A stretch of DNA of 64,000 bases, from contig JAHRHY010000007.1 in assembly GCA_019671135.1 (NCBI GenBank), forward strand, positions 558,001 to 622,000, written 5' to 3'. This document shows positions 27,161 to 59,596 of this stretch, piece after piece. The position numbers and the translations under genes are program-made. The stretch is from Linnemannia hyalina. Its lineage: Eukaryota > Mortierellomycota > Mortierellomycetes > Mortierellales > Mortierellaceae. Each line of letters begins with the position of its first letter. Position 1 is the first letter of the stretch. The notes under the pieces are model-generated. The model worked only from the letters and a program-made list of their open reading frames with translations, searched no databases and was not told the origin of the DNA.

Positions 27161-30100
27161 CTATGAAGAAGGAATAGTGATACCCTTGAGACGAGCAACC
27201 CACTTGAAGACAACAATCTCAAGCTCCATCTGGCCAGGGATATCCTCATCCCCAACCGCCAAAACGTACGGCAACACGGGCGCGCCAGGGATAACAATCG
27301 ACACCTGGTGAGGCTCCAACGACGCACCACCGTTCGGCACTGCTCCGGCACCCTGCGAAACCGACACCGGCGACTCTGCCTCTGCAGTAGCGGTAGCATC
27401 AACAGAGCTATCCTGTTCCTGCTGCTCCAGTTGCTGCTGCTGCATCTGCTGCAAAGCCATCAGCAGCCCTGCCTCACTCATCCTCAACGCCTTGATCAAA
27501 GACCGAATACTGGGTGTTGGCTCAATCGCCAAGGAGCCCAAACAAGTATCAACAAAGTACCCCAAGTCCATACTCAACTGGTTGACACCAGCCTCCGAGA
27601 GTCGACTCAAGTAATGCTGCTTTTTGGCGTTGGCCGTCACACCACCAACGGGGGAAGACGACGGGACGGGCGACGATGTGGGACCTCCGAACCGGTTCCT
27701 CTGTTGTTGTTGTTGAGATGCCATGGTGGCAGAAGAAGGTGTTATCGGTGAGGATGTAAACTCGCCGAGATTGGGGTCATAAAGGCGCTCGATAATCGTA
27801 TGCATCGCGGCCCGAGAGAGCGACGTGATCCAGCGATGCATCACCGCTAAATCATCCTCATCCTCCAATGACTCCCCTCCATCGTCATCACCCTCTCCCT
27901 TAGACTTATTGTCGGCCGACCCAACTCCAAGATCCTGATCCGCATCCAGGCTCTTCTCTCCAGATCCATCGCCTCCCTCGGCAAACATAGACTCCTGCTG
28001 GTTCTGGAGCTCCAAGGGTCGATCCGCATATGGTAACGAAAGGATCCCGAACCTCAGACCAGGGTCTCCCTCATACGTTCCAAATGTTAACGGCAACGCT
28101 AACAACTGCCTCAGCAGCTCCTCCATGTAATCACTAGGACTGGACCGGAACTTGATCACATCCGTCCGTGTGCCTCCCATTGTCGACTGATGCACCCTCC
28201 GCGCAACCTTATCGCTGAGTCCACCAGGCTCGTCAACCCCCTCGGTCCAGCAAGGAAGCAACGCCAGATCTGCCAATGGTCGCGACAGAGGAATGTAAAC
28301 AGAATCGAAAATAAACCGCTGACAGAGCTTTGTCAACTGAACTGCGCGTTGGTGACTCTGCAAGAACAGGTGGTAAGGCTTGGGGTCTAATCCAAGATCT
28401 GTCTCTGCCGAAATCTGGTCCTTGGGTGTCGTTTCGTCCTTTAGGCTCGACTTTTTGACAATCTCCAGAATCTCGGAGAGGCGGAAACTGTTCAAGTTGG
28501 ACTGCTGAAGGAGGGCGATCGAGGCGTTGGGTGGTTGGATAGCTGTTGCAGACTTGAGTCCCGACACTGACGATCCTTGGTCGACTGAAAGGTGACCTCC
28601 GTCCTGGTAGTTGCTTTGGTCCATATTAACAAACTCCTCAACGCCCCGAAGCGCCTTCTTGGTCTTGACATCCAGCTGGTCCAACCTCTGACAGAGCTGT
28701 TTACACAAAACCATCAACCGACAGCCCATCTGGAAGAGTCTCTGGTCCTGCTCATGCACATCCTCATCCCAACCATCCGAATCCGTGTCCTCTGCAGAAT
28801 CCGAAAGCTGGTTGTCGTACTTGGAGCCCTGTCGAGAGTGTGACCCGTACTCGTTCTGTTTGGCGGTGGCGACAGCGGTAATTTTGTTTCCATTTGCATC
28901 CACTTGCAGTCCCGACCTCTGGCGGCACTCGGCCAAGATCTCAGAGTAGCGATCCATAATGTCCTTGAAGAACCCAGTGAGTCCATCCAACAGTCCTGGA
29001 GCTCCGAAACCATGAGTCAATCTCATACACCGACCAATCGCTCCTTCGGCCAGGTTGAAGGCAAGGGCGTTGGTATTCGTCATGATCTTGACCAGATGCG
29101 AGCTGCTCTTGGCGATTCCTCTGCTCCTTGTTACAGGGTCCAGGTAAGGTGCCATCGCAGGTACCGATGTCGTCAGCAGCGCCCTCAAATGTGCTCCCTC
29201 TAGCTTGCCATAGTTCCGCTGGTAGCCCATAAAAGGTTCGTAGAGAACATATGCCCACTCGTGAGGATCTTGGAATGACTTGAGATCGATGTTTTTGTCC
29301 TGAATGAACGACGCCCGGTTGCCCTTGCCGTCCCTGGAGCCATCAGGCACGACCAGACTTCCTGCTCTTGACCGGTTCCCGCTGTGCTCCCGCTGGTTTC
29401 CGACGAGGGGTTGAGAAACAATGCGCTCCATCCTAGTGCCAAAGGCCTCAGTTGCCATGAAAGCCGAGATCAGAACAGGAAGTCCCCCCTCATCGCCCTG
29501 AGACTTTGTAACCTGCTGGAGGGCCACCTGCATGTTGGGGTCGATGTGTGAGAAAATGTCGTGGACAAGACCGTGGATGGTGGCCGAGGGGTCCGAAAAG
29601 ATGCTGGTGATCCAAGCAAACTCGTCGTGCAGCATACTGGATGCATCCTTGTAGAAAGTCTGGAGGGAGGCGGTGAAATCCTTCGAGTCGGCGGTGGCGG
29701 TGGTAGGAGTGCCTGGTCTGCCTGACCCGCCTGGTCGGAGACCAAGATTCAGTGCTAGTGTTAACCGCTTCCACTGCTCTAACAGAGGTGCGCGTCGTTG
29801 CGAGATGTAGAAGTCCTGGAACTTTTCCTGACGCCCGATGAGACCGAAGACCTTGATCAGGTCTTGACAGGCAGCGGTATCCTTCTGGTCTAGCGCTTCC
29901 TTGACTTTGCCCATGACCTGCTGCTCCAGTTGATCCTTGAGGGAGAGCAAGAGAGTCATGCGATCGCCTTCGACGTTGGTGTTCTTGTAAACGACAAGTG
30001 ACCGCTCGGCTTCCGAAAGTCTTGTGGCAGCCCTGGTGAAGTCGCCCTTGGCCAAGATATCCTTTGCCTCTGCCTCGAGATTTCTCCAGTTCTCAGCCTC

Positions 30101-30925
30101 GCGAAGAGCAGAATGTGTGGCCTCCATGCGAGTCTTGACCAGATCCAGGTACTTGAGACGATCCAGAGCCTGAACGGTATCGTTAGAGTCGACGGTGTTG
30201 ATGTCTCCTCTGACAAGACGGATGCCCTCCTGAAGCGCTCTTGTCTCCTGGCGCAACTGGTCGAGCTCGTGGGTCAGACGCGGGAGAAGCTTGACCATAT
30301 CCTGAGTTGCGGACGATAGGGCTGCTGAAGTCTGACCAGCGAGTAGGTGCAGTTTTGTGAGGTGTGTAGTCGCGTGTTGGGTCAAGATTGTTGTCTGACT
30401 TTTGGATGTTGTTGATCCTGCTGCTGGTCCTGCAGTTTGCCGACTTGATGGTGGCGTCGCTGAGCTGCTCGAGGAAGTGTCTTCGACTCCGTCCTTCTCA
30501 TCTATAGGGTGAACAAATATATATCTATGATATTAATAACGCGTATTAATGCTTTCAACGACATTGTCGCGCTTCAGGTCCAAGGTCAACTTACCGAGGA
30601 CAGGGTCGAGTGCAGGTGTCTGAAGAAGGTCGAGTGAAGCGTCCAAAGATGCGTCACCATTGTCTCCCGCGACAGATGAGGCGGAAGACCTTACACCCTT
30701 GATGCCGCTGAGGGATGGCGAGACCGGCGTTGATGAGGAGTTGTTTGTTGTAGTGGATGAAGTTGGTTCAGACTGACGAGGAACGGTGGTGAGGATGTTG
30801 TTGATCCATGCTTTGACGTCAAAGTCGGGCGCAGTGAAGGCGGGGTCGACAGCGGGGAGACCTTGGACAGCTTGTGCCCCTGACAACTGTGAGTGGTGGG
30901 TCTGGGGTCTTGCCGGCGCGGGCAT
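27161..30925 (-). CDS. COG7: Conserved oligomeric Golgi complex subunit 7
   Basis: COG7 is a lobe-B subunit of the eight-protein COG tether that guides retrograde vesicles within the Golgi. Exons 30925-30595 and 30501-27161 (93-base intron) give 1223 residues, larger than human COG7 (770) because of long low-complexity inserts. The diagnostic N-terminal motif FDVKAWINNIL follows an about 30-residue leader. A coiled-coil region (about residues 145-330) with DMVKLLPRLTHELDQLRQET and LVRGDINTVDSND matches the family, as does WKRLTLALNLGL further on. Inserts are rich in Ser, Gly, Gln and Asp, including a QQQQ tract and an acidic stretch. The C-terminal part ends with an ELEIVVFKWVARLKGI helix. 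It is divergently transcribed from the SDR gene with 217 bases between starts. Confidence 0.9.
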
Positions 30926-31142
30926 CTTTGTATTGAGTCTGATGAAAAGGATGTGGCAGGAAGGGAGTGGAGGAGGATGAGAAGGGGATGGGCGAGAGAA
31001 GCAAGAAGAGTGGAGTGAACAAAATTAGAGCGTGAGAGCAGGACTGTGTCCTTTTTTGAGTTGAAGTCACGAACGGAACTTGAAGTAGGAGAGCTAAACG
31101 ACAAAGTACATCGTTCCTTACTTCAACAATCCAGCTCACGCC
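30926..31142. promoter_or_regulatory. Bidirectional promoter interval, COG7 and SDR gene
   Basis: Only 217 bases separate two divergent start codons, so both promoters must lie here or overlap the genes. No clear TATA box is visible. Confidence 0.5.
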
Positions 31143-32144
31143 ATGTCAACGACAGCCATTGCACTGGGAGTCGCCATCGCCACTCCCATCCTAATCAAGA
31201 CACTCGCAGGATCAAAAGGACCCACAAGGGCAAAGACCATCCCTCACGCAGACGAACGAGTTGTCATCATCGGAGCCAGCTCAGGAATCGGGTCTGAACT
31301 CGCTCGTATATATGCCGGTCGACACGCGCACGTCGTCATGGTCGCCCGCAGGATGGAACTCCTTCAGCAATTGATTCATGAGCTTTCTTCAACTGCTAGC
31401 TCAATCCATGCTATCCAAGGAGATGTCACCTTGCCCGAGGATGTCCGCAGGATCACGCTCGAGTCCTTAAAGGCTCTCAACGGCAAAGTCGACACACTCA
31501 TCATTTGTGCCGGCATTATCTCCGTCCTGCCCTTTGCTGAACTCGCAGGCATCGACTCTGCGAAAACAACTACATCCGAATCTGACTACAGCCATCTCCT
31601 GCCTACCGACTCTGACAAGGCCCTGGAGGCTTCGATCAGGATCATGAACGTCAACTACCACGCACCTCTCAACCTCGCCAGCCATTTCCTCCCCGCACTT
31701 ACACAGACCAGCGCTGCTGGCAACATCATCGTCGTCTCATCCATGGCAGGTAAGATCGGCGCCCCTACTCGGTCGATCTACTCTGCGAGCAAACATGCCG
31801 CCCAGGGGTTCTTTGACGCTTTGGGCATGGAAGTCGAGCGGACAGGAGTTCATGTCGGGATCGTCTCTCCAGGAACAGTCGCCACCGACCTTCGCCAGTC
31901 CGCTGTGGATCTCCCCACAGCTGAGGCAACATCATCGACAAGTCCAGCAGCTCCAGTCAAAGTGGCGGGAACTAAAAAGGGCGCGATGACGGCCAAGGCG
32001 TGTGCGGAGGGAATTGTTCGAGGATCTGATTTGCGCCAACACGAAGTCATTATGCCGTGGTTCTACCATGTCAGTCTTGTTCTTCAGATTGTGAGCCCTA
32101 GTTTGGTACGATGGCTCGCCAAGAAAAAGTACGGCTACCTGTAG
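31143..32144 (+). CDS. Membrane-anchored short-chain dehydrogenase/reductase
   Basis: This intronless gene encodes 333 residues of a classical SDR. Residues 5-20 are a hydrophobic N-terminal segment, likely a membrane anchor, followed by basic residues. The NAD(P)-binding motif is GASSGIGSE (44-52), and the Arg-Arg near residue 69-70 (VARRMELL) suggests NADPH preference. The catalytic set is Asn at about 169-171 (NVN), Ser200 (VVSS), Tyr213 and Lys217 (YSASK). The usual NNAG motif is ICAG here. The layout resembles DHRS7/11-beta-hydroxysteroid dehydrogenase-like or Tsc10-like enzymes of the ER. The substrate cannot be told from sequence. A 25-residue Ser/Thr/Ala-rich insertion is present near residue 260-275. 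Confidence 0.9.
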   Translation: MSTTAIALGVAIATPILIKTLAGSKGPTRAKTIPHADERVVIIGASSGIGSELARIYAGRHAHVVMVARRMELLQQLIHELSSTASSIHAIQGDVTLPEDVRRITLESLKALNGKVDTLIICAGIISVLPFAELAGIDSAKTTTSESDYSHLLPTDSDKALEASIRIMNVNYHAPLNLASHFLPALTQTSAAGNIIVVSSMAGKIGAPTRSIYSASKHAAQGFFDALGMEVERTGVHVGIVSPGTVATDLRQSAVDLPTAEATSSTSPAAPVKVAGTKKGAMTAKACAEGIVRGSDLRQHEVIMPWFYHVSLVLQIVSPSLVRWLAKKKYGYL

Positions 32145-32404: not shown

Positions 32405-35078
32405 ATGAATGCAAACCCGCTCAGCGCAAAGCTGACAAAGCTCCTCGCGAGCTCTCTCGATGACCCAAAACTCAGGACTTCCCTCACTGCCCTCTCAGAG
32501 TTCTACACCGTCAATGCTGTCAACTCGCGACACAACCTCAGGGGCGATATCGAACGACGAGGCACCGAAGTCAACTACCAGTTCCTCCAGGAGCTGGAGA
32601 AAGTCAACATCGTAAAGCACACTCATTTTTATTCTTCTCATTCGACTTGCCAGAAAGGAGGTTTTCAAAGAGGCGGGAGGTCATCATCTCACGCGACTGT
32701 TTAACTCATCATCTAACCCTTCAATCACTTTGGCCATGGACGTTGTAGCAATTCCTGGAACTGGAGGCCGAGATGAACGAAATGAACTCGCTTTGTCAGG
32801 AGATGCAGGACCGCCTGAACTTGGCGAATGACAAGACCGTCACCTTGCTCGAGCAGACTGACGCTCTTCGGGAACAGAGGTACGACTCGCTCTTTCAAAG
32901 AAGAGGTTACCAAACTTATTTGTGCCGTGAAGAGCGCACGAACGACTGACCTCAAGTCCTTCTGTTCTTTCGACTGAACTATAGCAACATTTGTGCGGTG
33001 CGGCAGACTATCTTGGAGGCGTTTCTGGACCGATTTACATTGTCAGAGTCAGAGATTACGATCTTGTGCTCGACTGCTATGGATGTCACGCCTGCCTTCT
33101 TTGACGCGCTGGAGCACCTCGAAAACATTCACGCCGACTGCAACGCGCTTTTGATCACAGAGCACCAGCGAGCAGGGTATGTTCATTCGTGAGAGCGTCA
33201 CCGGTATTTCCATTGAGCAACCACCATGACTACTTTGAACCGCCTTGCATAACCTCTACATTATTTGTCGTTGAATTATCTAAACAGATTGGAGATCATG
33301 GACTCGATGAGAACGTATCGTAGTATTTCATACGAAAAGCTGTTCAGGTGGATGCAAAATGAATGCAGGACAATGAGCCGACCAGACGGGATGATGGAAG
33401 TTCGGGAGGTTACCAAGAAGGCGATCCAAGCACTCAAGCAGGATGATCAATTCTTCAGATTGATTCTGGAGGAATTAGTCCATGTGCGACGCAACGCTAT
33501 CCTTAGATCATTCATCGATGCCTTGACGAGAGGAGGACCTGGCGGCACACCACGACCGATCGAACTGCATGCTCACGACCCCCTGCGATACATTGGAGAC
33601 ATGTTGGCATGGATCCATCAGACTGTGGCGAGTGAACGTGAGTTTTTGGAGAGCGTTCTGAGCAGCGAGCGAAAGAAGCGGGATCGTGGACATGTTGAGA
33701 TCAAGTTGCCCAAGGCCAGCCCATTGCGGCTTGTCGAGAGCGATGCTACAGATGCAGAGATTGTTGACTCGCTTCTGGACAAGAACCTCGAAGGAACCGC
33801 ACGACCACTCAAGGTGAGTTTCAGGACAATTTGGACCCCTGGAGGAAAGTCGTGATACAGGGCATACGTTTGACGCCAATCGCATTTTTAATTTAATAGT
33901 CGCGAGTGGAGCAGGTGCTGGTTTCTCAGGCAAACGCCATCACAGCATTCAAGATCTCCAACCTCATCAAGTTCTACTCTTCGACAATCGAGAAGGCCCT
34001 CGGAACAGAGGCAACCCTTTCGAAAACGTTGCACGAAATCTCGGACGCGTCGATGCAAGTGTTCTTTGACGCGATCGGAAAACAATCAGCAGATCTCTTA
34101 CGTCGACCCGACTCTCCAGGAACAGATCTCGGACCACCTCCAGCCATGAAGGAAACTGTGCTTCAACTCAAGGAGATCATGAAATCTTTCGACACGTCCT
34201 TTGTCCAGGTCGATGAGGGTAACAAGGACTTTGCACCCATCCTGAGTGCCGTGATTGATCCTCTTTTCCAGATGTGTGAGATTGGCGCCGCCCACTTGAG
34301 TGCCTTCAACAGAGCCATCTACATGATGAACTGTCTTCACTATGTCCAGGTAGGATTCTCGTGTCGTTGGATGTGCAGCTAGCTTGTTGAGCGCTATGTC
34401 TGGCGTCCTTTTCTGACCATCTTTTTCTGTCTTAAATTTATTATATTATAGTCGGCGCTCGTATACCCATTCACAAAGCACAAGGTGGAAGACCTTGAGA
34501 AGCAAGTTCAGGACTATGTCGACACGGTTGTCGATGAGCAGGTTAGTAGCAGCACCAATTACTCTTGGCTAGAACATGTTGGTGGGCCAAGGTCTTCTAT
34601 CTAACTTTGCACCTCTTTCTCTTTGTTATATAGCATATTGTGTTGTTGAAGCAGTCTGGCATTGCACCAATAATACAGGCCATGGAAACCAAGGATGAGA
34701 AGGTAAGGCATTCGACTGTCGTCGATTACAATGGTTGATCCCGTGCTCAATACCAATTGAACTAACACGAACTTTGCTTATGAAAATACATAGACGCCAT
34801 TATCGTCGGTACCAGGCATGGATGCAATGTCAATCTCGGCAATCTTATCGCGTCTGGACCACTTTTTGGGATCGGTGACCTTGGATCTGTCGTCGTGGCT
34901 GTCCAAGATTGTGTCGTCGAGGCTGGCCAAAACGATTAGTACACAGAACGTGAGGATGTTTGTGGATGCATACCGGCGCCTGTGCCAGGCCGTTGAGGAC
35001 CCTAAGAACCAGTACGAGTTCCCAGCTACAATCCTAGTGCGCACCGCAGACGACGTAGAGGATCTCCTAGTCGACTAG
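32405..35078 (+). CDS. COG6: Conserved oligomeric Golgi complex subunit 6
   Basis: COG6 is another lobe-B subunit of the COG tether. Eight exons, 32405-32611, 32749-32879, 32985-33176, 33288-33813, 33900-34349, 34452-34541, 34634-34702 and 34794-35078, give 649 residues, close to human COG6 (657). The strongest match is the central block: YEKLFRWMQNECRTMSRPD, FIDALTRGGPGGTPRPIELH and HDPLRYIGDMLAWIHQTVAS, nearly identical to animals. The N-terminal 150 residues form coiled coils for complex assembly. It starts 261 bases after the SDR stop and ends 335 bases before RPC31, all on the plus strand. All introns are short (about 75-140 bases) with GTRNGN donors. Confidence 0.95.
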
Positions 35079-36956: not shown

Positions 36957-40799
<3,843 letters not shown>

Positions 40800-41325: not shown

Positions 41326-42872
41326 CAACGACGACCAGCGATATTTAGAAGGAAACCACCAAACAAATTAAAAGCACAAGCACCACACCAAAATGGCATT
41401 TCGAGTGAAAATATAAAAATGAATGAATGAATGAAAACGAGCGCGTTCGTTTGTCTCTGTCCGAACTGAGTTCCTTGCTCAAGACGAGTCGTCGCTATTC
41501 GGCATTGTCAACAAAACAATTGACAGCCGTACATTTCCACTCAACGTTCGACTAGGACACTATTAATTCCCGGTCATCCTTTCCTTTTCCATTGTGGCTA
41601 GCCGTTGCATACCCCTGACACTACCGAACAAGGCCAGGTCGTTGCTCCTCAGCGCCCACCATGATGTGGTTCAGATGTAATCCCTTGACCAACAATAGGA
41701 ATATTTTCAGCGATTGGAGGACATCATTTCAAGATGGTCGCACATTCTCAAGTTCAGAGAACAAAAAATAAGGCGAACGAAAACATAAACCGATATCCTG
41801 CTGTAGCGCCATGTCATTGAAAACTCGCCACCTACAGTAGTGCTGTCAACGAAAACAATAACAGCATCATATGACCATGTATCGATAACACCAACAACGT
41901 CTGGTGCAGTAAAGCAGTAGTAGACAGATTTCTTTAAACTCCATCCGCACCTTCAACATAAGCTCCTGCAATAACCCCGACAAGAACAACAAGCCAAGCC
42001 AAATATGAATGTTAATGTATGTCTTTATTGTTCGTACTACGCTAATGGCTAAGCTAGTAGACCCGCCGTTAGTCAATGCCACTCCTCCGTCCCCTGGAAG
42101 AGAGAGAGAGAGAGAGAGGGCATCGTCCAGGGCACACCACGAGGAGGTCGCGGGTCAAGGTAGTGCCCCAACAAAAACAGCTCCTCCAAGCGCTTCCAAA
42201 AGGGGGTTGGCTTGAAGGAATTAGAAAAACAAACCCGGGCTTAGAATTCCGCCGAAGGCGTCCTTCCTTCGCCCTCAACGACGACGACAGTTTGGCGAGG
42301 GGTACCGAACACACGGACTGAAGGGCATTCCAGCGGCCGCGTGGGCCCGGGTCCTCTTTTTTCTCCACGGCCCCAGAGCAGAGCACACGTAGTCTCTGCC
42401 TGGAACCGCCGCACGTTGGTGTTAGTACTCCTGTTTTTCGTGTTTGTCCTCTTGTTGATTGTCGAGTTGTTGTCGGGTTGTCGAGTTGTTGTCGGGTTGT
42501 CGAGTTGTTGTCGGTTTGTTGTTGCTTGTCGGTTGTGTCGATGGTGGTTGTTGTCGGTTGTTGTTGCTTGTCGGGTTGTTGTCGGGTTGTCGGTTTGTTG
42601 TTGCTTGTCGTGTTTTTGTCGATGGTGGTTGTTGAGGGTGTCGATGGTGTCGGTGTTGTCGGTGGTGGTTGTCGGTGGTGGTTGTCGATGGTGGTTGTCG
42701 ATGGTGTCGATGGTGTCGGTGGTGTCGATGGTGTCGATGGTGTCGGTGGTGTCGGTGGGTTGATAAGAAGAAAAGAAAGAAAAAAAGAAGGAAGAGGAGA
42801 GAGGGAAGCATTGTGTACCCACTCAGTCCTTCTTTCTCTGTTCTCTGCCAAGCCACCGGTGACCTCATGTCC

Positions 42873-42904
<32 letters not shown>

Positions 42905-43153
42905 GTCCAATCATCCAAAGGGAAAAGAAGGCGGTGGAAAGGAGAGGAAAAACTGGTTGGTCGAGAGAGAGCACGCACAAGCTTTTTTTTTCGGAAAAAC
43001 GCCGAGACCCCCCTTGGGATAATGGAGTCATTATGCAAACGTATGCCTGCTGCATGAGAACATATCCACTGAGTCCTTTCCCTCCATCGCCACCATCACG
43101 AGGTTTTCTTAGGCTGTTTTTGCTTGTTAGCTTCGCCTGGGTTCGGCTGAATC
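41326..43153 (+). repeat. Left arm of the inverted repeat
   Basis: Runs from the outer CAACGACGACC motif to an inner GGGTTCGGCTGAATC motif. The same sequence appears reverse-complemented in the right arm. Its minisatellite spans about 42430-42760 and its CT run about 42877-42903. Confidence 0.85.
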
Positions 43154-43571
43154 GTATCTTTCTTCCGAGCCTTCGCCTTTCGCCATCGAATAATGTTCGA
43201 GTAATGGAAATAGTCTAAGAGAAAACGCAAGTATGTGTTGCCAGAAAGGAACGGGATAAGTATAAGGGGATGAAGGATGGCGATCGACGCATCAAAGTGA
43301 AATGCGAGACAAGATGGAAAAAAGAAAAGTACGAACTGTCATTCCCTCATCTATCAGCACTGCCCGATTCCCTTCGATACCTTATCTCTTATAATCTTTT
43401 TCGTGTCCCTATTCCTCACATGCTCAGCTATGACATCATGCTTGTTTGTTTGATGGTCGTAATGGAGAGGTGGGTTGGGTTGGTCGACAGATTGGGGGGA
43501 TAGGTATGTTACTCCCTCTTCCATTGTTTTCCTTCTCTCAAGGTCTTGTGGGTTGGCCTTCAATCGAAAGA

Positions 43572-43818
43572 GATTCATCCGAACCCAGGCAAGCTAACAA
43601 GCAAAAACAGCCTAAGAAAACCTCGTGATGGTGGCGATGGAGGGAAAGGACTCAGTGGATATGTTCTCATGCAACAGGCATACGTTTGCATAATGACTCC
43701 ATTATCCCAAGGGGGGCCTCGGCGTTTTTTCGAAAAAAAAGCATGTGCGTGCTCTCTCTCGACCAACCAGTTTTTCCTCTCCTTTCCACCGCCTTCTTTT
43801 CCCTTTGGATGATTGGAC

Positions 43819-43868
<50 letters not shown>

Positions 43869-45372
43869 GGACATGAAGTCATCGATGGCTTGGCAGAGAA
43901 CAGAGGAAGAAGGACTGAGTGGGTACACAATGCTTCCCTCTCTCCCTCTTCCTTCTTTTTTTCTTTCTTTTCTTCTTATCGACCCACCGCCATCGACACC
44001 ACCGACACCACCGACATCACCGACACCATCGACACCATCGACAACCACCACCGACAACACCGACACCATCGACACCCTCAACAACCACCATCGACAACCA
44101 CCACCGACAACCACCACCAACAACCACCAACAACCACCATCGACAAAAACACGACAAGCAACAACAAACCGACAACCCGACAACAAACCGACAAGCAACA
44201 ACAAACCGACAACAACTCGACAACCCGACAACAACTCGACAATCAACAAGAGGACAAACACGACAAACAGGAGTACTAACACCAACGTGCGGCGGTTCCA
44301 GGCAGAGACTACGTGTGCTCTGCTCTGGGGCCGTGGAGAAAAAAGAGGACCCGGGCCCACGCGGCCGCTGGAATGCCCTTCAGTCCGTGTGTTCGGTACC
44401 CCTCGCCAAACTGTCGTCGTCGTTGAGGGCGAAGGAAGGACGCCTTCGGCGGAATTCTAAGCCCGGGTTTGTTTTTCTAATTCCTTCAAGCCAACCCCCT
44501 TTTGGAGGCGCTTGGAGGAGCTGTTTTTGTTGGGGCACTACCTTGACCCGCGACCTCCTCGTGGTGTGCCCTGGACGATGCCCTCTCTCTCTCTCTCTCT
44601 TCCAGGGGACGGAGGAGTGGCATTGACTAACGGCGGGTCTACTAGCTTAGCCATTAGCGTAGTACGAACAATAAAGACATACATTAACATTCATATTTGG
44701 CTTGGCTTGTTGTTCTTGTCGGGGTTATTGGAGGAGCTTATGTTGAAGGTGCGGATGGAGTTTAAAGAAATCTGTCTACTACTGCTTTACTGCACCAGAC
44801 GTTGTTGGTGTTATCGATACATGGTCATATGGTTCTGTTATTGTTTTCGTTGACAGCACTACTGTAGGTGGCGAGTTTTTCAATGACATGGCGCTACAGC
44901 AGGATATCGGTCTATGTTTTCGTTCGCCTTATTTTTTGTTCTCTGAACTTGAGAATGTGCGACCATCTTGAAATGATGTCCATCAATCGCTGAAAGTCTT
45001 CCTATTGCTGGTCAAGGGATTACATCTGAACCACATCATGGTGGGCGCTGAGGAGCAACGACCTGGCCTTGTTCGGTAGTGTCAGGGGTATGCGACGGCT
45101 AGCCACAATGGAAAAGGAAAGGATGACCGGGAATTAATGGTGTCCTAGTCGAACGTTGAGTGGAAATGTACGGCTGTCAATTGTTTTGTTGACAATGTCG
45201 AATGGCGACGACTCGTCTTGAGCCAGGAACTCAGTTCGGACAGAGACAAACGAACGCGCTCATTTTCATTCCTTCATTCATTTTTATATTTTCACTCGAA
45301 ATGTCATTTTGGTGGTGCTTGTGCTTTTAATTTGTTTGGTGGTTTCCTTCTAAATATCGCTGATCGTCGTTG
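43572..45372 (-). repeat. Right arm of the inverted repeat
   Basis: Mirror copy of the left arm, beginning GATTCATCCGAACCCAGG and ending CGATCGTCGTTG-like sequence. The GA run at about 43819-43867 is nearly twice as long as its partner in the left arm, and the minisatellite (about 43979-44275) is somewhat shorter. Confidence 0.85.
43819..43867 (+). repeat. (GA)n microsatellite in the right arm
   Basis: An almost uninterrupted GA dinucleotide run; the matching position in the left arm is a shorter CT run. Confidence 0.9.
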
Positions 45373-46577
45373 TAATAGTAACCGTCCCACTTTTCCCATC
45401 TTTCGTATCCATCATTGTGTTCATAAACCCTTTCCATTTCAGCCATTTCGATTTGAAGAAAAATGACCTCAAGCATGCGCTGATGTTACTGGCCATTCAC
45501 CGACGGATGTTCGACTTCTTCATCCTCCAACAGCGTTGACACACTGTTTCCAAAAAGTCACCAGCCCACTCATTTTTGAACATCATGTTGTAACTACGAT
45601 GTTGATGACTAAAAGAACCTGAGCGATATCGAGGTATGGATTGTAGTTTGACCTATTGCGGTATCAAGATAACATAATAATGTCATTTTTGCGCGGATGC
45701 TCTTGACCCATCTTTGGTTCAGAAAAAGAGTTGTTCGTTTGGGATAAAAAATGCATCTGTGAAGGTGACTTTGGCCATGCTGGATTTTCACGTTCTTTTC
45801 TATGCACTGAAGAGTTTTCGCTCATGTTGATGAATCTTGAATGCGCCCAGGTACATTGTGGTAATGTCAGGAAAGTTGTAAAGCCGGTTCTGCTAATGAA
45901 AAAAGCTGTTCTTGTGGATCGCCAAAGTATCATTGTACATGTTCGCGATAAGAAAAAAAAATGGTGAATGTGTCTGTAGGTTAAAAACACCTTGTACTCC
46001 AGAAATACGAAACATAAACATGGAGCACATAGATCAACCCCTTGGTTCAATGCCCACACGCTCATTCATACACCTATAAACCTAAGAATTTATTTTTTAG
46101 GATAGCTGGCAAACAGCAAAGACAGAAAACTGATTGTGGAAGAACGAGCGCCAAGAAGAGTCAGTGGAATAGGTAGAGAAAGAATAGCGAGACTGAGTAA
46201 ATATGATAGTGACTATAAGAGAATAGAGTATCAAAAACATATGTGTGCTTTGGACATGAAGTCTTGAATATGGCATAGATGCTGATGTCGCCTTGGAGGG
46301 ATTACGGTATCCTATGGATTTTTGTTTTGTGTGTCTCAATGATATGACATATATGTGGAGCCGTTGTTTTTTTGATTTGTATGTATAGTGTATAGGTTAT
46401 GTGCGTGTTGTTGGCTCTCTGACGGAGTGCTCTGTGAAAAATGGAGCGTGCCTGAGATCAGTGAGAAAGAAGAGATGGTTTGTTTATTCTGCTATGACTA
46501 CGGCTTTATACATGGGGCCGGAGCCGAACTATCTCGCTCCTTAATAATCCATAGACGCTGAATATGCGACACTCTGT
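45373..46577. other. Right flank of the foldback element and 3' flank of the T-box gene
   Basis: This stretch holds no supported gene. It is AT-rich with short open frames on both strands. The T-box stop codon lies at its right end. Confidence 0.5.
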
Positions 46578-49079
46578 TCACTGTTGTTGGTCTATGGCCA
46601 GAAAGGCTGTCATCTCGGACTCAGCCTCAGTACCTACAGACAATTGATGCAAAAGAATAAAGTACACCGTATGTCAGAAAAAGAACTCACAAGAGAGATG
46701 GTCGTTAAAAATATCATGAAAGCATTCATAGCCAGAGTATTTACCATAGCGTTCTCGGACAAAGGCCTTGAGGCATTCGTTTTCAAAGAGGATACGATCC
46801 AAGTGCACTTGCTGTTCTGCTTCAACAGTCCCAGTGATGCTGCCATTATAGAGATCGCCATCAGAACCGTTTTGCCCGTTGTAGTCGTCGTCATAGTGGG
46901 CCTGATCGTCCCAGTTAGGCACTGAAGAAATGTGTGGTGAGAGGGGAATGGTCATTGTAGGGGTGTGGTTGGCGTCGCTGAGGTGTGCATGGCCTCGATC
47001 CTGTCTGGTGTTGGAAGCTTTCTCGAAAAAAAGGGGTTGAGAGAATGCATTCTTCTGCTGCTCGCCCCTCCAGCTGTTGTACTGGCTACCGCTGCCACCA
47101 CTGGGAGTCCACTGAGACTGGTGCTGTGGCTCTCGCTGTCGATACTGCTGCTGCTGCTTTGCTCCATGGAAATGCGCCAATTGCGCGAAGCTGCTGCCGG
47201 AAGTGTTGTGCGCTGAGAAGAACTGCTGACCCATCGAAAAGACGCCTTTGGGGGTAAAGTGTGAGTGGGGCCGGAGGCTGTCGATCTCGTCTCCGTGCTG
47301 TGAGACTTGACGATGCTGGGCGTAGTGCTGTTGTGTCGTTCGTTTCGAAACCTTGGCGACTTGCTTAGCGTCCTTGCCGAGAGATATAGTGACGAGTGCA
47401 CTATTGTCCTTGCCCAGTCGGCAGGTGGGACGGGCGTCGTTTTTGAGTATTCCTGTCATAGCGACATCAACCGAACCCATTGCTTCCAAATCGCTCACAT
47501 CTGCATTTATGTCCACCTCCTCCTCCTCGTAGAGGTCATAATCGAGATCTGTGACGTCTTCACAGTCACTGCCAGTATCCTTTGGTCGCGAAGTCGGACG
47601 GGCGCGCTTGCTGAGTCTCGAGTTGGGGTTAACCAGAGAGGAGTGCTTCTGCAATTCTTGAAGGCGATGGAATCCTCTAGCGGGGATCTTTCCGACGGTT
47701 TCACGGAAGGCTCTGGCGTGAGGGTTGAACGACTTTTTCAAGTCATTCACGTTCTCGTTTTCGTATCTTGTTACTGCCATGTAAGTTGCCAGGTCGAATG
47801 TGTAGGCGGTCGTGCTGAGGATTTCGTTGGAGTCCTTTGCCAGCTCTGTCAATACGACCTTGGGGCGGTACTTGTGGAATGATTCCATGTGAAACACGTT
47901 GGTGTCATTATAGCTGTCTCCGAGGGGCTGAGAGTGTGACCTTCCAGGACCGTCGTTGCTGTTGGTTGCGCTAGTAGAGTCGACCTTGCGTTTGGAGGAG
48001 CTGGTAGAGATAGAATTGAACTTGAGAGCTTTCTTGGCGACTGTCGGCTGAGACTTGGCCTTGTTGGCGAGTTTAGCCTTGGCGAACGAGATCGGGTTGG
48101 CCATCCAATGGCTGCCGAGCTTGAGTTGGTCTGGGTGTGTGTACGTCTCGCCCTTGTGGTCTGATGCGGCGGTGGCGATGGCGGTAGAGAAATCGTCGAT
48201 GTTTTTGGGAGACCTGACTGCCTTCCATGCGCCATTGCTGAACCGGAATCGGTTTGGAGCGAGCATCTCAAATTCGAGGCAGAATGAATAATACGCATCG
48301 GGATTGAGGTTGAAGACGTTGAAGCGGAGGCTAGGGAAGAGGCAGCGTCCAGACGTTGTTATGATCATCTCATTTTGGTGCTCATCGAATTGTGCCCACA
48401 AGTCCGAATCCAAGAGCAACACCTTTGGCTGAGGCCCATCGTGACGAGTGCCGCTGCTGTTCAAAAGCGCAAGAGCGGCTGAGGTTCTGCGGGTCGACAA
48501 TGCGAGGCAATCAGACGGTGATGTGCGACTGGGCGATGACAACGGTGACATAGGGCCATATTGCTCTCCACGTCTCCGCTTTGATGGTCGACCGCTGCTA
48601 TTATCCTGGAGCGACTGCGAAGAGAACTGAGCTGACCGAACCTCAGCCTCTGTTGGTTCCCTCTGCTCGAATGGTCGGATCTGTGAGGGAGCAGGCTTGC
48701 CCAGATGCATGCTGCGGTACCACGGTCTATTCTTATGAAAAAGACGAAGATAGAAGATATATTAGATACACCGTACAACACCCCCCCGAGAAAGAACATT
48801 TATAATCACAGAAACAAATGAAACTTTGGATACCTACTCGCTGTGTCGGTTGTCTGATCGAACATTAGTTCGCAGATTGCTTGATGGACCTTGGCGGCGG
48901 TCAAAGAGAGTAACCTTTGGCTCATTCTCCTTGTTAGCGTATTCCCTTCCAGTGGACATCGTGGTGGGTTGCGCGCTGGAAGAGGAAATGGAGGAGTGGG
49001 AAGCGACAACATGGTTGTCCCGAGGTGGTTGTTGGTGGTTATGGCGATGACCCCGGTGGTGGTGATACTGTGGGAGCAT
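46578..49079 (-). CDS. T-box domain transcription factor
   Basis: This is a sequence-specific DNA-binding regulator of the T-box (Brachyury/TBX) superfamily. Three exons, 49079-48838, 48726-46745 and 46633-46578, give 759 residues with consistent phases. The N-terminus (1-180) is low-complexity with a basic SKRRRGEQ patch, a possible nuclear signal. The T-box (about 184-425) shows LLDSDLWAQFDEHQNEMIIT, GRCLFPSLRFNVFNLNPDAY, HPDQLKLGSHWM, ISFAKAKLANK, the signature SFHKYRPKVVL, and AVTRYENENVNDLKKSFNPH followed by ARAFRE. These match the animal order LW, EMIIT, GRRMFP, GxQWM, VSFxKLKLTN, HKYQPR and TAYQN...NPFAKGFR. A 55-residue Ser/Lys-rich insertion splits the fold before the HKYRPKV strand. 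The C-terminus is rich in Gln, Ser and His. Targets are unknown. T-box genes are rare in fungi, known only from basal lineages. Confidence 0.92.
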
Positions 49080-51483
49080 TGCTTTTGTGTTTGTTGGTAG
49101 AGGAGTGAATGCGTGCGTTGTAAAAAGAAGGACGGTGTCTTGTGAGGGTGAAGAAGGGGTAGTGTAGCTATGCAATTCAGCAGTTATTGTGAAGAAGAAG
49201 GGCGAGATAATGTTAGAGTGAGAATGAGAAACAGGGTAAAAAAGACGAGAGGTGAAGTAAAGGGTGAGCAAAAGAAAGAGGGACGTGGACTGTAAGGCGA
49301 CAGAGTTTACATAAACAGCGACCGCCTGTTTTCCTTCGTAACATGCAAACCAGACGAAAATTATATATAATTGCGAGGAAAGGAGGGGGGAGTCAAAACA
49401 AAGAACTCACACACAATTGTAGTGTAGACATACAAAGGGAATAAAAGGTATGAAGGAAAGGGAGGAAGTGGGTAGGCCGGCGCAAGCTGAGCATGAGTAA
49501 AGGAGGGGGATTGTCAGGATTTGACTTTACTTGCAAGAGGTAGGGTATGGCGTGTTTAGTCGGAGTGGAGAAAGGAAAAAGGGCTGTTCTTGGTACCTGC
49601 TCGTATTTCGACTTGCAAACAATAATGAGCTCAGCGTCGACGAAGAAAGAAAGTCTTGAGTGAGGAGGGACTCGAAGGTACTATGTGCCAATACAGAGAT
49701 AAAGAGGGGTGTATGAGTGTATAGGTGGGAGAGGGGAGAGGTGAGTAGCAGTAGGAGCTGGGTGAAAGGACCAGAAGAGAGAGGGAAGTTGTATGTGTGT
49801 GTGTTTGAGTGTTGTGAGGGAGGGAAGTGGGTGTGGTAGTGGGGTACTGGGTTGCAGAGCAAGAGAGCAAGCAATAGCAGGAAAGAGGTGTATGTTTGGG
49901 TGAGAGCGAGAATAAAAGAGTAAGAGGGAGGTGGTTGGAGAAGTGAGTGAGAGTGGAGGTAGGGAAGGAAAGCAAAGCGAATGGAGTTGAAGTGAGGAGG
50001 AAGAGGAGGAAGAGGAGAAGAAAGGAAAGAAGTGAGGAGGAAGAAGAGAAGGTTTTCGTCTAGCCGCCTTGCGACCGATAGACAAAAAGGCAGAAGCACA
50101 CAGGGCTACATCATATTTTTTTTCTTCACTCTGAGAGTATGAACCCTTATTCCTCACTTACAACACATACACATGCACATACATATACACACCCCTGTCC
50201 ATAGTTGGGATCGATCCTTCCGTTCCTACTTCATCGACAGCCACAGTAAAATATTAGTTCCTGAGACGAATAACCTACACTGACGCAGAAACATCACCAA
50301 TTAATCAAACACTGCTCTCTCGACCATGTCCTTGTCTTTGTATTTCCTCACTTGTTAGCCTTTGTTTGGGATGTATGGATTACTACAGTCGTGGTTGTTG
50401 CATACCCGCCTTTCTCTTGTATGTTCAAATGGTCTCTATTTCTCTACGTCTACATATCTACATATGACCATATCTGCTTTTGTTTGTGTCTGTGTCACTG
50501 AGAAAAGAGGCATTGATAGCGCACAGGGAGGGGATGCTAGAATGTATATTCCACTCAATACACAGAACCTTTCATTTTTTGTTTATGCTCCTTTCTTTCT
50601 TATTTTTCTTGTCCATGGTTGTGAAAGAGGGAGGTAGTGTCCTTGGCCCAGAGAGAAAAAGAGGCAAAGAGTGAGAGAAGGGGAGAGTAGGTGGACGAAC
50701 GGTAAGGCGAAAAAGGCCATCTGCTTTGAGAGGTAGCTGGCGAGCAATTCTCCCATTCGAGAACCTTTTTTTTTATCCGTCTAGAACTGTTTCCTTCCAG
50801 CGCTTTTTTTTGAGTGCGTTTGCTTGCAGTGTCTTCTTTACTCATGTCTGTACATTTGTACATGTGCTTGTGATGTCAGAAAACAAGTCCGGCAGGCGGT
50901 TAGGAAAAAAAGAGGGGTGAGTTTGCTGTACCCTTGGATGTCTTTTGGTTGGTTTTGGTCGCGTGTGTTAGCAAATGGTCCGATTGGATGGGAGGGTTGA
51001 TTTCCGAGACCGAGGGAAATGGATAAGGGCGAAGAGTACGAATCGGAAACTGCAAAAGATAAAAAAGGAAAGCGACACTAAGTTTTAATTCAGTCCTTGC
51101 TATTCAATCATACTTTTCATGTTCACATACGCGCGCTTTAGCGCGTAAACAAACAACACATACGAACACAAACACAAACACAAACACAAACACATTTTTT
51201 TTACATAGGCTAAGAGAACGGCTCTGCATCAGACGAGTCGCATTGTTTTTCTTCTCTATGCAAGACTGTTTATGCCTCTCGAGCACTCCGCAGATAACGC
51301 ATCGCATGCATTTTTCGTCATCTCGGTTCTGCGTTAAGAGTTTGCTTTTTTGGTGGGTTGTAAAGAGAAGTGGTGGTTACCCATGTTTTATTGTTATAGA
51401 GATAATAGTTCGAGGTGCTCAGCGGGCTTAAGATGTCCTTGCTTGAGGTGGAGGGTATGACTAGGTCGCCATAAGTAGTCCAC
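49080..51483. other. Gene-free region upstream of the T-box gene
   Basis: From about 49080 to 50150 the minus strand is pyrimidine-rich (plus strand GA-rich), as in the leaders of other genes here, so it is probably the T-box promoter and leader. The rest, 50150-51483, has short frames only and an ACAAAC hexamer repeat. No gene is supported, though a long regulatory region is plausible for a T-box gene. Confidence 0.5.
51163..51194 (+). repeat. ACAAAC hexanucleotide repeat
   Basis: About five tandem ACAAAC units, in non-coding sequence. Confidence 0.85.
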
Positions 51484-52626
51484 TTAGTCGTCATCTTCAT
51501 CGCCATCATCCAGACCTGGAACGGATAGCCGCATTGTCTCATCCTTATTGACTAGCTTGCGATACTCCCAGAAGAGTGCCCATCTCAGTAGTTCTTGTTG
51601 TTGCTGCAGGTGAACCTGTTGGATCTGTTGTTGTAGCAACTGATACTGCTTTTGCTGGAGCTGATGAGGCTGGGCGAACTTATGCTGGTCCTGGCGGCAC
51701 TGCTTCTTGAACTCCTGTACGCGCAAGGGAACTTGTTGTTCGAAAACCTGTATCAGATCCATGAGCTCCTGCTCCTGTTGTCTCATGAGCTGTTGGTATT
51801 GGAGGATCGAATGCTGTTGCCGAAATGGAAGGAGAGAAAAGAAGGGGAGGAGACAGGAAGGCGAAGATAAATTAGGGCGAGGGTGGAAAGTGAAAAGAAC
51901 TGAACGAGGTACAAGAAATATGAATGATTTCCTTTTCTTTTGGTACCGAGGCTTTTTTGTTGTCTTTTGGTTTCTGTTTTTGTTGAGTGAATAAAGAAAT
52001 GAAAAGAAAAGAAGGAAAGAAAATGATATTAACAGGCGAATACGAAGACGACAAGGACAATGAAGTAGGTCAAGAAGAGTGAGGGAAGACGCAAGGTCAG
52101 AAGGGGATTATGCGTGGGAATAGAACAAGATAAGAAGAGACAAAAAAGAAAGGGTAGTGAAGGACGGAGGTACTAGAATGGGGAAGGGTGTGACGATTGA
52201 GAAAGGAGAGAACTGGGAAACGAAAAGGGTATTTTCTTGCTTTTTTCGCGTTTTGATTGTTATGAAAGGATGTAATGGGGGAAAATAAGTAGAAGGGAAG
52301 GAGGGGGGAGGAGAGAGAGGAGAGAAAGGAAAGAAGAGGAAGGGAGAATTGGCCAAAAGAAAAAGGTGGTATGGGTGAACGAGGAATGAAAAGTTGATAG
52401 AGGATGTGAGTGAGGATGATGAAAAGTTGAAAGAGAAATGAAGTGGAAGTATTATGAGGAGATATGAGAGGGAGAACTGGCTATTGTTAGTTGCTGGTAT
52501 TTTGAGCGCTGTTGTTGGGTCAAGGATATGTTGTGGCAATAACGAAGAGAAGAAGAAAAAAGAAAAGAGAGAGCGGATGGCCTTCCATATTATTACTGCT
52601 CGACCTCCTTCCATGTCGTCCACCAT
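51484..52626 (-). CDS. Tentative small Gln-rich protein with acidic tail
   Basis: The 3' exon (51813-51484) is supported: it is preceded on the gene strand by a CCTAAT branch-like motif, a long pyrimidine tract and CAACAG acceptor, and encodes 109 residues that are helical and Gln-rich (QQQIQQVHLQQQQELLRW) with a GLDDGDEDDD tail. A possible first exon, 52626-52597, encodes MVDDMEGGRA and ends in GTAATA in the right phase, giving 119 residues across a 783-base intron, long for this genome. The exon could instead belong to another upstream exon, or translation could start at the internal Met (51786). No domain is recognised; a coiled coil is likely. Confidence 0.35.
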
Positions 52627-56801: not shown

Positions 56802-59596
56802 CTAAGAGATGGGCGCAACACGCCCATCATTAATTATCGCACTGCCACTGCCATTTTTACTCCCGACACCATTAGCAGCAGCAGCAGACCGACGATCGCG
56901 AACCTCCTTGACGATCTTACACCCCGTCACATCAGTCTCCTCTGGTACAACCCTCGATCCAACCCTCTGACTACTAGGGTGCACCACCGGCGCTATCACG
57001 GCGTCCTGGAATTCACTCTCGTCCAGCACCTGCTCTGGCGGCCTGGCCACAGGGTGACAGTTATCACTGTGCTGGAACCAGTCACTGTCCAATACATGAA
57101 TCGCCTGCCATCGTTTCCTGGTATCGGGTTCCAGGAGGTGCTCAATGACATCCGAGATATGGTTAGGCCATGCAAGGGTGATGTGCGAGACCTGTTCCAA
57201 GGAGGTGAGGTTGACGTAGTGAGGTGTATGTTGGAGTTGATGTGGTTGAATGTAAGATCCCTGGTCTGACTGTGATTGATGGTGTGGTTGCGCGACTGGG
57301 AACTCTCCTGAAGTGTGAAGGTCGCCGACGCTGAGGTACCGGTCCCGACGGTAGAGAAATCCGTCCCAGATGGGGTCGCCGTCAGAGGCCTCGTGCCATG
57401 TGTATCGTCCTAGCCTCATGCACATGTAAATAACGCCGCATGCCCACATATCGACCTTGCTGAATATGTGTCATCCGATTATCGTGAATAAAAAGAAGTG
57501 CACAGAGTCGTCGCGGTACAGAAAACGAATGAGAAAACGAAAAATGTGAAACGGATTAGTTTGGATCAAAAAATGGGGCCGAAGGACATGGGTGGGAGAA
57601 ATGTCGAAGGAGGGTTGAAAAAGGCGCTAAAGAACAAAGGAAAAAGAAAAAATCTTACCGAGCATCAAAAGTCTCGCTGGTAAATTCCTCGGGTGCGATA
57701 AAGGGGCCACTCCCCCGGATCGAAGTCGACGATCGGACCTTCTTCTCCCAGGGCATCCGAAAGACTTCACTGTTGCCGAAATCGGCAATCTTGAGGCACC
57801 CATCCGACGTCAACAGCAGGTTCTCAGGCTTCAGATCCCGATGCACCACGCCCATCGAATGCAAAAAGGCCACGCCGTTGATGAGCTGCGAAAAGAAACA
57901 GCTCGATTCAGACTCACCCAGGGTGTTGGCCGACGCAATTAGACTGTGCATGTCGCCTCCTGCACAATACTCCATGACCTCGCTGTAGGTGTCTCCATGA
58001 AGTTGGAGAAGGTCCATCGTCTGGATGACATTGGTGTGCTTCAATGACGAGGCAATACAGAACTCGCTCGTCAGTCGGCGCATGTACATCTTTTGGGTCT
58101 CTCCATGAGCGTATTTGAACTCCTAAGTAGTTTCGGGACCCATGCAAGTAGTAAACGGAATAAAGAAAAATCAAAAGAAAGACTGGTTAGTTAGTGTCTA
58201 GTCGGTGTGGAGGAGCACAGAGGATAGTTGAACCTGCATACATGCTTGTGCGCTTTTCAGATAGACACGCTTGCTGTCTGACCGCACATAATCAAGGGTC
58301 AACAAAAAAAAAGCCAAGGAGAAACCGGAGATGAGAAAATAGTTCGGTAAAAAAAAAGTTACCTTGATGGCAAAAATGTGTTCTTCCCCGGTTTCAATGT
58401 TTCGCTTGACACTGATTCTGACAGTACCGAACGCGCCTGTTGCCAACAAGAAAGATAGATAGAGAGAGAGAGGCGATTAGTTCAATTAAACGTGCGTTTG
58501 TCATATGCCGAACGACGACGCACCCGCAGTCATTTTTTTTATCGTTAGCGCACGTTCAGACTGTTAGGATGACCCAAAGTTGGAACTCGGAATCGGATGT
58601 CCTCATATCATCTCTCCGCGATGAGGCAACTGCCGCAATCGAATGCGCGGTATTACCTTTGCCGATGATCTGCTGGAGTTCTCCGTACGTTTGTGAAAAG
58701 TCCGTCTTGACAGAGTGTCTCCTCCGAAGGCTGCTTGCAGGGCTTCCTGTAGGGTCAGTCTCGAGATCCTGATACTTTTCGTTAAGTAGTGATAGAGGAT
58801 GCTCAAACACCTCGGGCTTGAGTTGGTGTTGACTGTGCTGTTGCTGTTGATGCGGATGGTTGAGCGAGGGATCATCCCTATCCCGTCTTCCGTCCAGTAA
58901 CTCCCGTAGCCGTCGCACCTGGTTGGCAAGGAATTGTTGGCGTTTCGGGGCCGAGAGATGATGCCGGTGACCGCCATTGGGCAGTCGTTCGTAGCGGACC
59001 TTCTCAATCACAGAACCGGCAGAGGAGGGAGCAGTATCGGATGAGGCAATCGACCAGCTGGAGGGGGACGCCGAAGAGGGGCCAACAGGGCCATAAAAGT
59101 CAGCAGAGGACGGGATGTCGGTCATCAATTGGGACCGATGACCACTCCTGAGACGAGTGGAAGAGGATCGCAAGGGTTGGGGCGGTGGCCTGCGCTGTCG
59201 CGGTTCCAGGTCAGGCTGGTATGAGGGTTGAGGTAGCCGCGGGGATGATGTCAGGTCTGGGGTAGTGGCGGTTGCCTTATTGGATCCGTGGGCGATCTGT
59301 TCCAGCGGGAGGATGGGGTGCGATTGGGAGGACGTTATTGAGGAGGGCGCATTGGCAGTAAGGAAGGTAGCTGACTGCGGTGGTTGAGGGGACCAGGACC
59401 TTGACGCTATGGGTGTTACCTCTGGGTTACGTTCCAGTCCAGGTTGTTGCGGCGATTGCTCCTGTTCTTGGTGGTGGTGAGGTATTGGGTTGTTGCTGTT
59501 GCTGTTGTTTGGGAAGGCGGATAGTCCCGATGTGTTTAAGGTGAGCTTGTCTATTTGAGGCAGGCTGTTAGTGCTGCTGGAGTGTGTAGAATCCAT
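56802..59596 (-). CDS. Ser/Thr protein kinase, Hal4/Sat4-Npr1-like
   Basis: Fungal kinases of this group regulate plasma-membrane transporters and ion homeostasis. Four exons, 59596-58657, 58436-58363, 58122-57659 and 57459-56802, give 711 residues. The first 305 residues are low-complexity (Ser, Pro, Gln, with QQQQHSQHQ). The kinase domain then starts with GKGAFGTV (about 312-319), Lys338 in FAIK, Glu358 of helix C, HRDLKPENLLL (Asp about 434), DFG at about 452 in KIADFGNSEV, and GSGPFIAPEE. The domain is split by the last intron just before KVDMWACGVIYMCM. The insertion after GRYTWHEASDGDPIWDGFLY and the Ser/His/Gln-rich C-terminus are typical of fungal Hal4/Npr1-type kinases. Closest family was judged by layout only; another transporter kinase subfamily is possible. 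Confidence 0.88.

Follow-up and report, generated by a model that had tools for sequence, protein, structure and literature searches.

A fungal T-box gene with exchanged contact-site residues in an inverted duplication of Linnemannia hyalina

The T-box family is best known for shaping animal embryos. In human Brachyury (TBXT), Arg69, Phe213 and Phe217 contact bases or the minor groove; Thr196 and Ala197 touch thymine methyl groups (PMC11828899). Outside animals, the genes raised when the ichthyosporean Creolimax is in its amoeboid stage include T-box genes (PMC4739763). In fungi they are on record for several early-branching species (PMC10256749) and for Spizellomyces, named in PMC3626178 with reference to a 2011 paper. 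Mortierellaceae members are entered in UniProt as 'T-box domain-containing protein', and one from the soil fungus L. hyalina carries the name tbx19 (P0004; here TbxA).

Here we describe another intact T-box gene of this fungus, which we call TbxB. It lies in a stretch of 64,000 nucleotides (hereafter the window; C48:558001-622000) of the 51.5-Mb genome, assembled to 51.56 Mb from PacBio reads with HGAP4 (PMC8444964). We consider it about 85% probable that TbxB encodes a T-box factor with Brachyury-like DNA binding and probably altered specificity, and that it is a vertically inherited Mortierellaceae paralogue, copied again within a 9-kb inverted unit. Its interest lies in the exchange of contact-site residues across fungi and in a second round of exchanges in the duplicated TbxB subfamily. 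In the rows compared, positions that touch bases in Brachyury hold different residues in fungi and in animals, which bears on whether the T-box code is fixed or changeable outside animals. T-box genes also occur in arbuscular mycorrhizal fungi, on whose function there our literature search found no work.

An intact three-exon T-box gene

The copy in the window (copy A) is a minus-strand gene of three exons encoding 759 aa. A sequence-only reading had proposed an intact T-box transcription factor gene of this form, from a family already documented in early-diverging fungi. Its splice signals, frame and length were reproduced, and the T-box motifs that it listed all fall in one minus-strand frame. 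The Pfam T-box profile matched with 144.4 bits (cut-off 26) over positions 3-182 of 182, almost the full profile. That scoring and the first homologue search used a 777-aa version of the protein, with an intron donor 54 nt further downstream; the T-box, in exon 2, is identical in both versions. The longer version was dropped and the 759-aa donor favored because relatives join at RERYG/xEAE. For the start codon there are two candidates: an upstream ATG like the start of P0011, and an internal MSTGREY like the starts of P0003, P0019 and P0027.

The predicted structure of TbxB has a T-box fold. (A prediction from six sequences, with a pLDDT of 40.6, was discarded.) An insert of ~57 residues in the domain (about 305-361, bounds by eye) is a low-confidence region of the model. 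Arg208 is the equivalent of the base-contacting Arg69, and the C-terminal helix N415-F421 carries N-P-x-A-[KR] and the equivalent of Phe217. Of the two aromatics of the Brachyury class (Phe213 and Phe217), Phe217 is kept and Phe213 is replaced by His417. The gene is of a known kind, the fungal T-box genes, and the earlier assignment was correct. DNA binding by the folded domain (residues about 180-425) most likely resembles that of Brachyury, in which case Arg208 would contact a guanine, and Phe421 would enter the minor groove with the C-terminal helix.

Contact-site residues and the C-terminal motif

An initial homologue search yielded 18 proteins, of which 15 are named Mortierellaceae, 2 are unnamed and 1 is from an insect. 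With a profile led by a Rhizophagus-like metagenome sequence, the set was extended to Glomeromycotina, Endogonales (Jimgerdemannia), Basidiobolus, chytrids and Neocallimastigales; none of the 52 matches listed from it came from Dikarya or Mucorales, which is no proof of absence. The T-box alignment drew on 15 of the 18, on 24 proteins hand-picked from 120 listed of 1025, and on 35 of the 52, with 7 more of the latter used solely in the C-terminal check. Including the window protein and human Brachyury, it comprised 68 proteins in 69 rows: 12 animal, 2 Chromosphaera, 2 metagenome and 53 counted as fungal (among them the metagenome rows JGI_meta P0028 and meta_lgn160 P0160). The two Chromosphaera rows come from a single protein with two T-box domains (~48-250 and 337-528), P0026 (Nk52), which we take to be from the ichthyosporean Chromosphaera perkinsii.

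We then compared residues at the Brachyury contact sites, counting those rows in which the site is filled; several of the fungal rows come from close relatives, and the counts therefore do not represent independent events. The Arg69 site was invariant (Arg in 51/51 fungal and 12/12 animal rows) and the Thr196 site nearly so (Thr in 51/52 and 12/12). Phe217 was likewise mostly kept (47/52 and 12/12). The Phe213 site, by contrast, held His in all 52 fungal rows and Phe in all 12 animal rows. At the Ala197 site, fungal rows outside TbxB had His (46/47, with Gln in the other), TbxB had Arg (5/5), and animals had Ala (11) or Ser (1). Cys occupied the Arg70 site in 48/51 fungal rows. At the Gln199 site, all 63 rows outside TbxB had Gln, whereas the five TbxB rows had Glu. 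Other rows combined these states: Chromosphaera has Cys70, yet Phe213, and P0172 (an ENA metagenome protein, row meta_ena172) has animal-like Arg70 and Ala197 with a fungal-like His at the Phe213 site. Alignment error is unlikely for the C-terminal exchanges, as the block that contains them has no gaps.

TbxB shares with human and Xenopus Brachyury the fold (predicted), Arg69, Thr196 and Phe217. It differs in having His for Phe213, Arg401 for Ala197, Cys for Arg70 and Glu403 for Gln199, and in its long insert. With Spizellomyces P0148 and Rhizophagus P0139 and P0140 it has in common the signature GRC-x-FP, LKK and NPHAKGF; these proteins keep AVTHYQ where TbxB has AVTRYE. The other Mortierellaceae proteins share with it the domain, the NPH helix, the C-terminal motif described below and their clade. 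TbxB is shorter than they are, lacks SWYQQF (present in 5/7 other rows) and TTILES (6/7), and has Arg401, Glu403 and Thr205 where most of them have His, Gln and Lys.

With His417 in place of Phe213, Arg401 in place of Ala197 and Glu403 in place of Gln199, TbxB probably has an altered specificity. In our literature search we recognized no publication on fungal T-box function or on these exchanges, with the reservation that figures of a 2013 PNAS paper may show the latter. In that paper, Capsaspora Brachyury reportedly showed a binding preference similar to the animal one. A T half-site count gave no support to autoregulation: the window contains a single AGGTGTGA, at 2804, versus 2.8 expected by chance.

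The protein ends in a motif, EN-x-x-L-[KR]-x-F-[IV]-R-x-R-Y-G with small variants (EN-x-x-L-K-x-F-V-R-E-R-Y-G in TbxB), followed by a short acidic-alanine tail. It ends 32 of 75 distinct proteins: 19 from Mortierellaceae, 12 from Glomeromycotina or Glomeromycotina-like (Rhizophagus among them), and that of Jimgerdemannia. By eye, it is degenerate or cut in Paraglomus and Gryganskiella. Among the 75, no chytrid, Neocallimastigales, Basidiobolus, Chromosphaera or animal row has it, nor does the partial Cetraspora P0175. Eleven Mortierellaceae rows gave no match: 8 partial records, plus L. zychae P0020, L. zychae P0153 and L. gamsii P0024, which are not marked as partial. Pfam gave no match to the motif, either in the window protein or in the five relatives tested. 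From its conservation and position, we guess that it may be a protein-binding element; together with the linkers, it would recruit other proteins.

A broader scenario is tentative, and we would rather bet against it than for it. Early in fungi, the DNA interface of the T-box may have been re-coded by His at the Ala197 and Phe213 sites, toward a target different from, or looser than, the animal AGGTGTGA. TbxB would then have been re-coded again through Arg401 and Glu403, and the RERYG module would recruit a fungus-specific partner in Mortierellaceae, Endogonales and arbuscular mycorrhizal fungi.

Duplication and constraint

The genome has three T-box domains above the cut-off: copy A, copy B (C48:537063-539564) and TbxA, which is longer and lies on contig C9. 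Copy B is in the opposite orientation to copy A and intact under the same gene model. The two genes differ by 35 mismatches and no gaps over 2502 bp, with frame, splice sites and C-terminal motif preserved in both. The database protein P0001 (KI688_011366; a cluster of 2 member sequences) is identical to copy B at the positions that distinguish the two copies.

Copies A and B sit in inverted 8.97-kb units, 59 kb apart. At the end of each unit is a palindrome (arms ~1.8 kb, spacer ~0.4 kb), which occurs at window positions 41326-45372 and at C48:540769-544787. Three more copies are on C18 (~2.6 kb, 83-86%), and shorter matches occur elsewhere in the genome. Mismatches between the units are uneven, with 79 in 5502 columns at window positions 47001-52500 and none in 3000 at 44001-47000; the last 432 columns, within the palindrome, have 1 mismatch and 3 gap columns. 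We interpret this pattern as the result of gene conversion in the recent past, or of a further round of copying, near the palindrome; an artefact of assembly polishing is possible. We propose that TbxB arose as a Mortierellaceae paralogue of TbxA and was copied again within the inverted unit, beside the foldback-type palindrome, with conversion or re-copying later. As a side observation, the inverted duplication may let the intervening 54-kb segment invert.

The subfamily extends beyond L. hyalina. In M. hygrophila, TbxB is represented by at least two sequences from different contigs, P0002 and P0080, which are 91.8% alike over 255 residues and each 84-86% like copy A or B; a single one comes from Mortierella sp. 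GBA39. Within a species, the copies are more alike than between species, which fits repeated duplication or conversion alike. A stem of 0.53 in the tree had hinted at a general acceleration of TbxB, which we do not claim: in relative-rate tests against TbxA, 2 of 9 outgroups only gave significance (Gamsiella, P = 0.043; L. exigua P0011, P = 0.0002).

Evidence on constraint is mixed, the T-box of TbxB being only sometimes better kept between species than the remainder. Against GBA39, 108/120 and 57/62 T-box residues are kept, versus 98/131 in the N-terminal part. Several observations weigh against our interpretation. Versus P0002 the T-box keeps 57/62 residues in its second part and 29/34 in its first, as far as present, with 241/296 in the linker; versus P0027 it keeps 105/120, with 128/144 in the N-terminal part. 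Between copies A and B there are 21 nonsynonymous changes in 1770 sites and 10 synonymous ones in 507 (dN 0.012, dS 0.020), which shows no purifying selection (P = 0.19 versus neutral). Copy A has changed where copy B and relatives agree, e.g. to Lys370 from Arg. The loss of Phe213 and the weak support for branching order among fungal groups (85/26, 87/71) belong on the same side. Within the T-box, the A/B comparison gives 6 nonsynonymous and 1 synonymous change (P = 1.0 versus neutral). Since the pair does not depart significantly from neutral, it cannot by itself show that copy A is needed.

Copy A could be a young, functionally idle duplicate, left by palindrome-driven rearrangement, with TbxA and perhaps copy B as the working genes. 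We regard this as unlikely but worth weighing. The near-neutral dN and dS would fit it, as would the recent inverted unit adjoining a dispersed repeat. By our reading, of the 17 A/B differences comparable with relatives, copy A seems to have the derived residue at 9 (e.g. C154, F260, V329, K370 and L436) and copy B at 6, and 2 are unclear. What counts against idleness is that both copies remain intact, without a single gap, and that the TbxB subfamily has persisted in M. hygrophila and GBA39.

Descent and layout of the locus

We built a tree from 65 of the 69 rows, omitting M. hygrophila P0027 and P0080, Acipenser TBX15 and L. gamsii P0024. It was rooted on animals and included one Brachyury row. 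Fungal rows, plus one metagenome row, separated from animals and Chromosphaera with support of 100/94. Mortierellaceae (27 rows), Glomeromycotina and Basidiobolus each formed one clade. The metagenome row meta_ena172, on a long branch, was placed among animals. In this animal-rooted tree with its single Brachyury row, the fungal rows, TbxB included, fall outside the 11 animal rows. This topology fits vertical descent from an opisthokont ancestor, and TbxB would have been inherited in that way. Horizontal transfer from an animal is very improbable: annotators did give fungal proteins animal names (tbx19, tbx21, tbx4), but the position of the fungal rows, the three single clades, and a Chromosphaera protein joining fungal-like Cys70 and LKK to animal-like Phe213 all speak against it. 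An Ig-like DNA-binding domain of p53, NFAT or Ndt80 type is less credible still, given the 144-bit T-box match; neither Ndt80 nor p53 was among the matches listed in the comparison, an absence that shows nothing by itself. In one relative, P0165 of Irineochytrium annulatum, the gene model fuses PF01151, presumably an elongase family, to the T-box; annotation possibly merged two genes.

Table 1. Features of the TbxB locus, in window positions
Feature	Position	Strand	Remarks
Exon 1, copy A	48838..49079	-	Start codon 49079; alternative internal MSTGREY start possible; later part like P0003, P0011, P0019, P0027
Intron 1	48727..48837	-	111 nt, GTAGGT..ATAG; copy B has GTAAGT..ATAG
Exon 2	46745..48726	-	Gene model; contains the entire T-box domain
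T-box domain	47700..48416	-	Residues 185-423; profile match
Intron 2	46634..46744	-	111 nt, GTAAAT..GTAG; junction common to relatives
Exon 3	46578..46633	-	Gene model; stop codon at 3' end
C-terminal motif, exon-2 part	46745..46784	-	Residues 729-742; continues through exon 3 to residue 759
Inverted duplication unit with copy A	43572..52532	-	Partner C48:533627-542573 (outside the window); 98.84% over 8966 columns
Foldback-type palindrome adjoining the gene	41326..45372	.	Arms 41326-43153 and 43572-45372, 93% alike; dispersed repeat

Neighboring genes in the window are ordinary. They include COG7 (27161-30532, minus strand), a short-chain dehydrogenase (31098-32144, plus), COG6 (33253-33855, plus), exons of an alanyl-tRNA synthetase (38415-40799, plus) and a protein kinase exon (57655-58122, minus).
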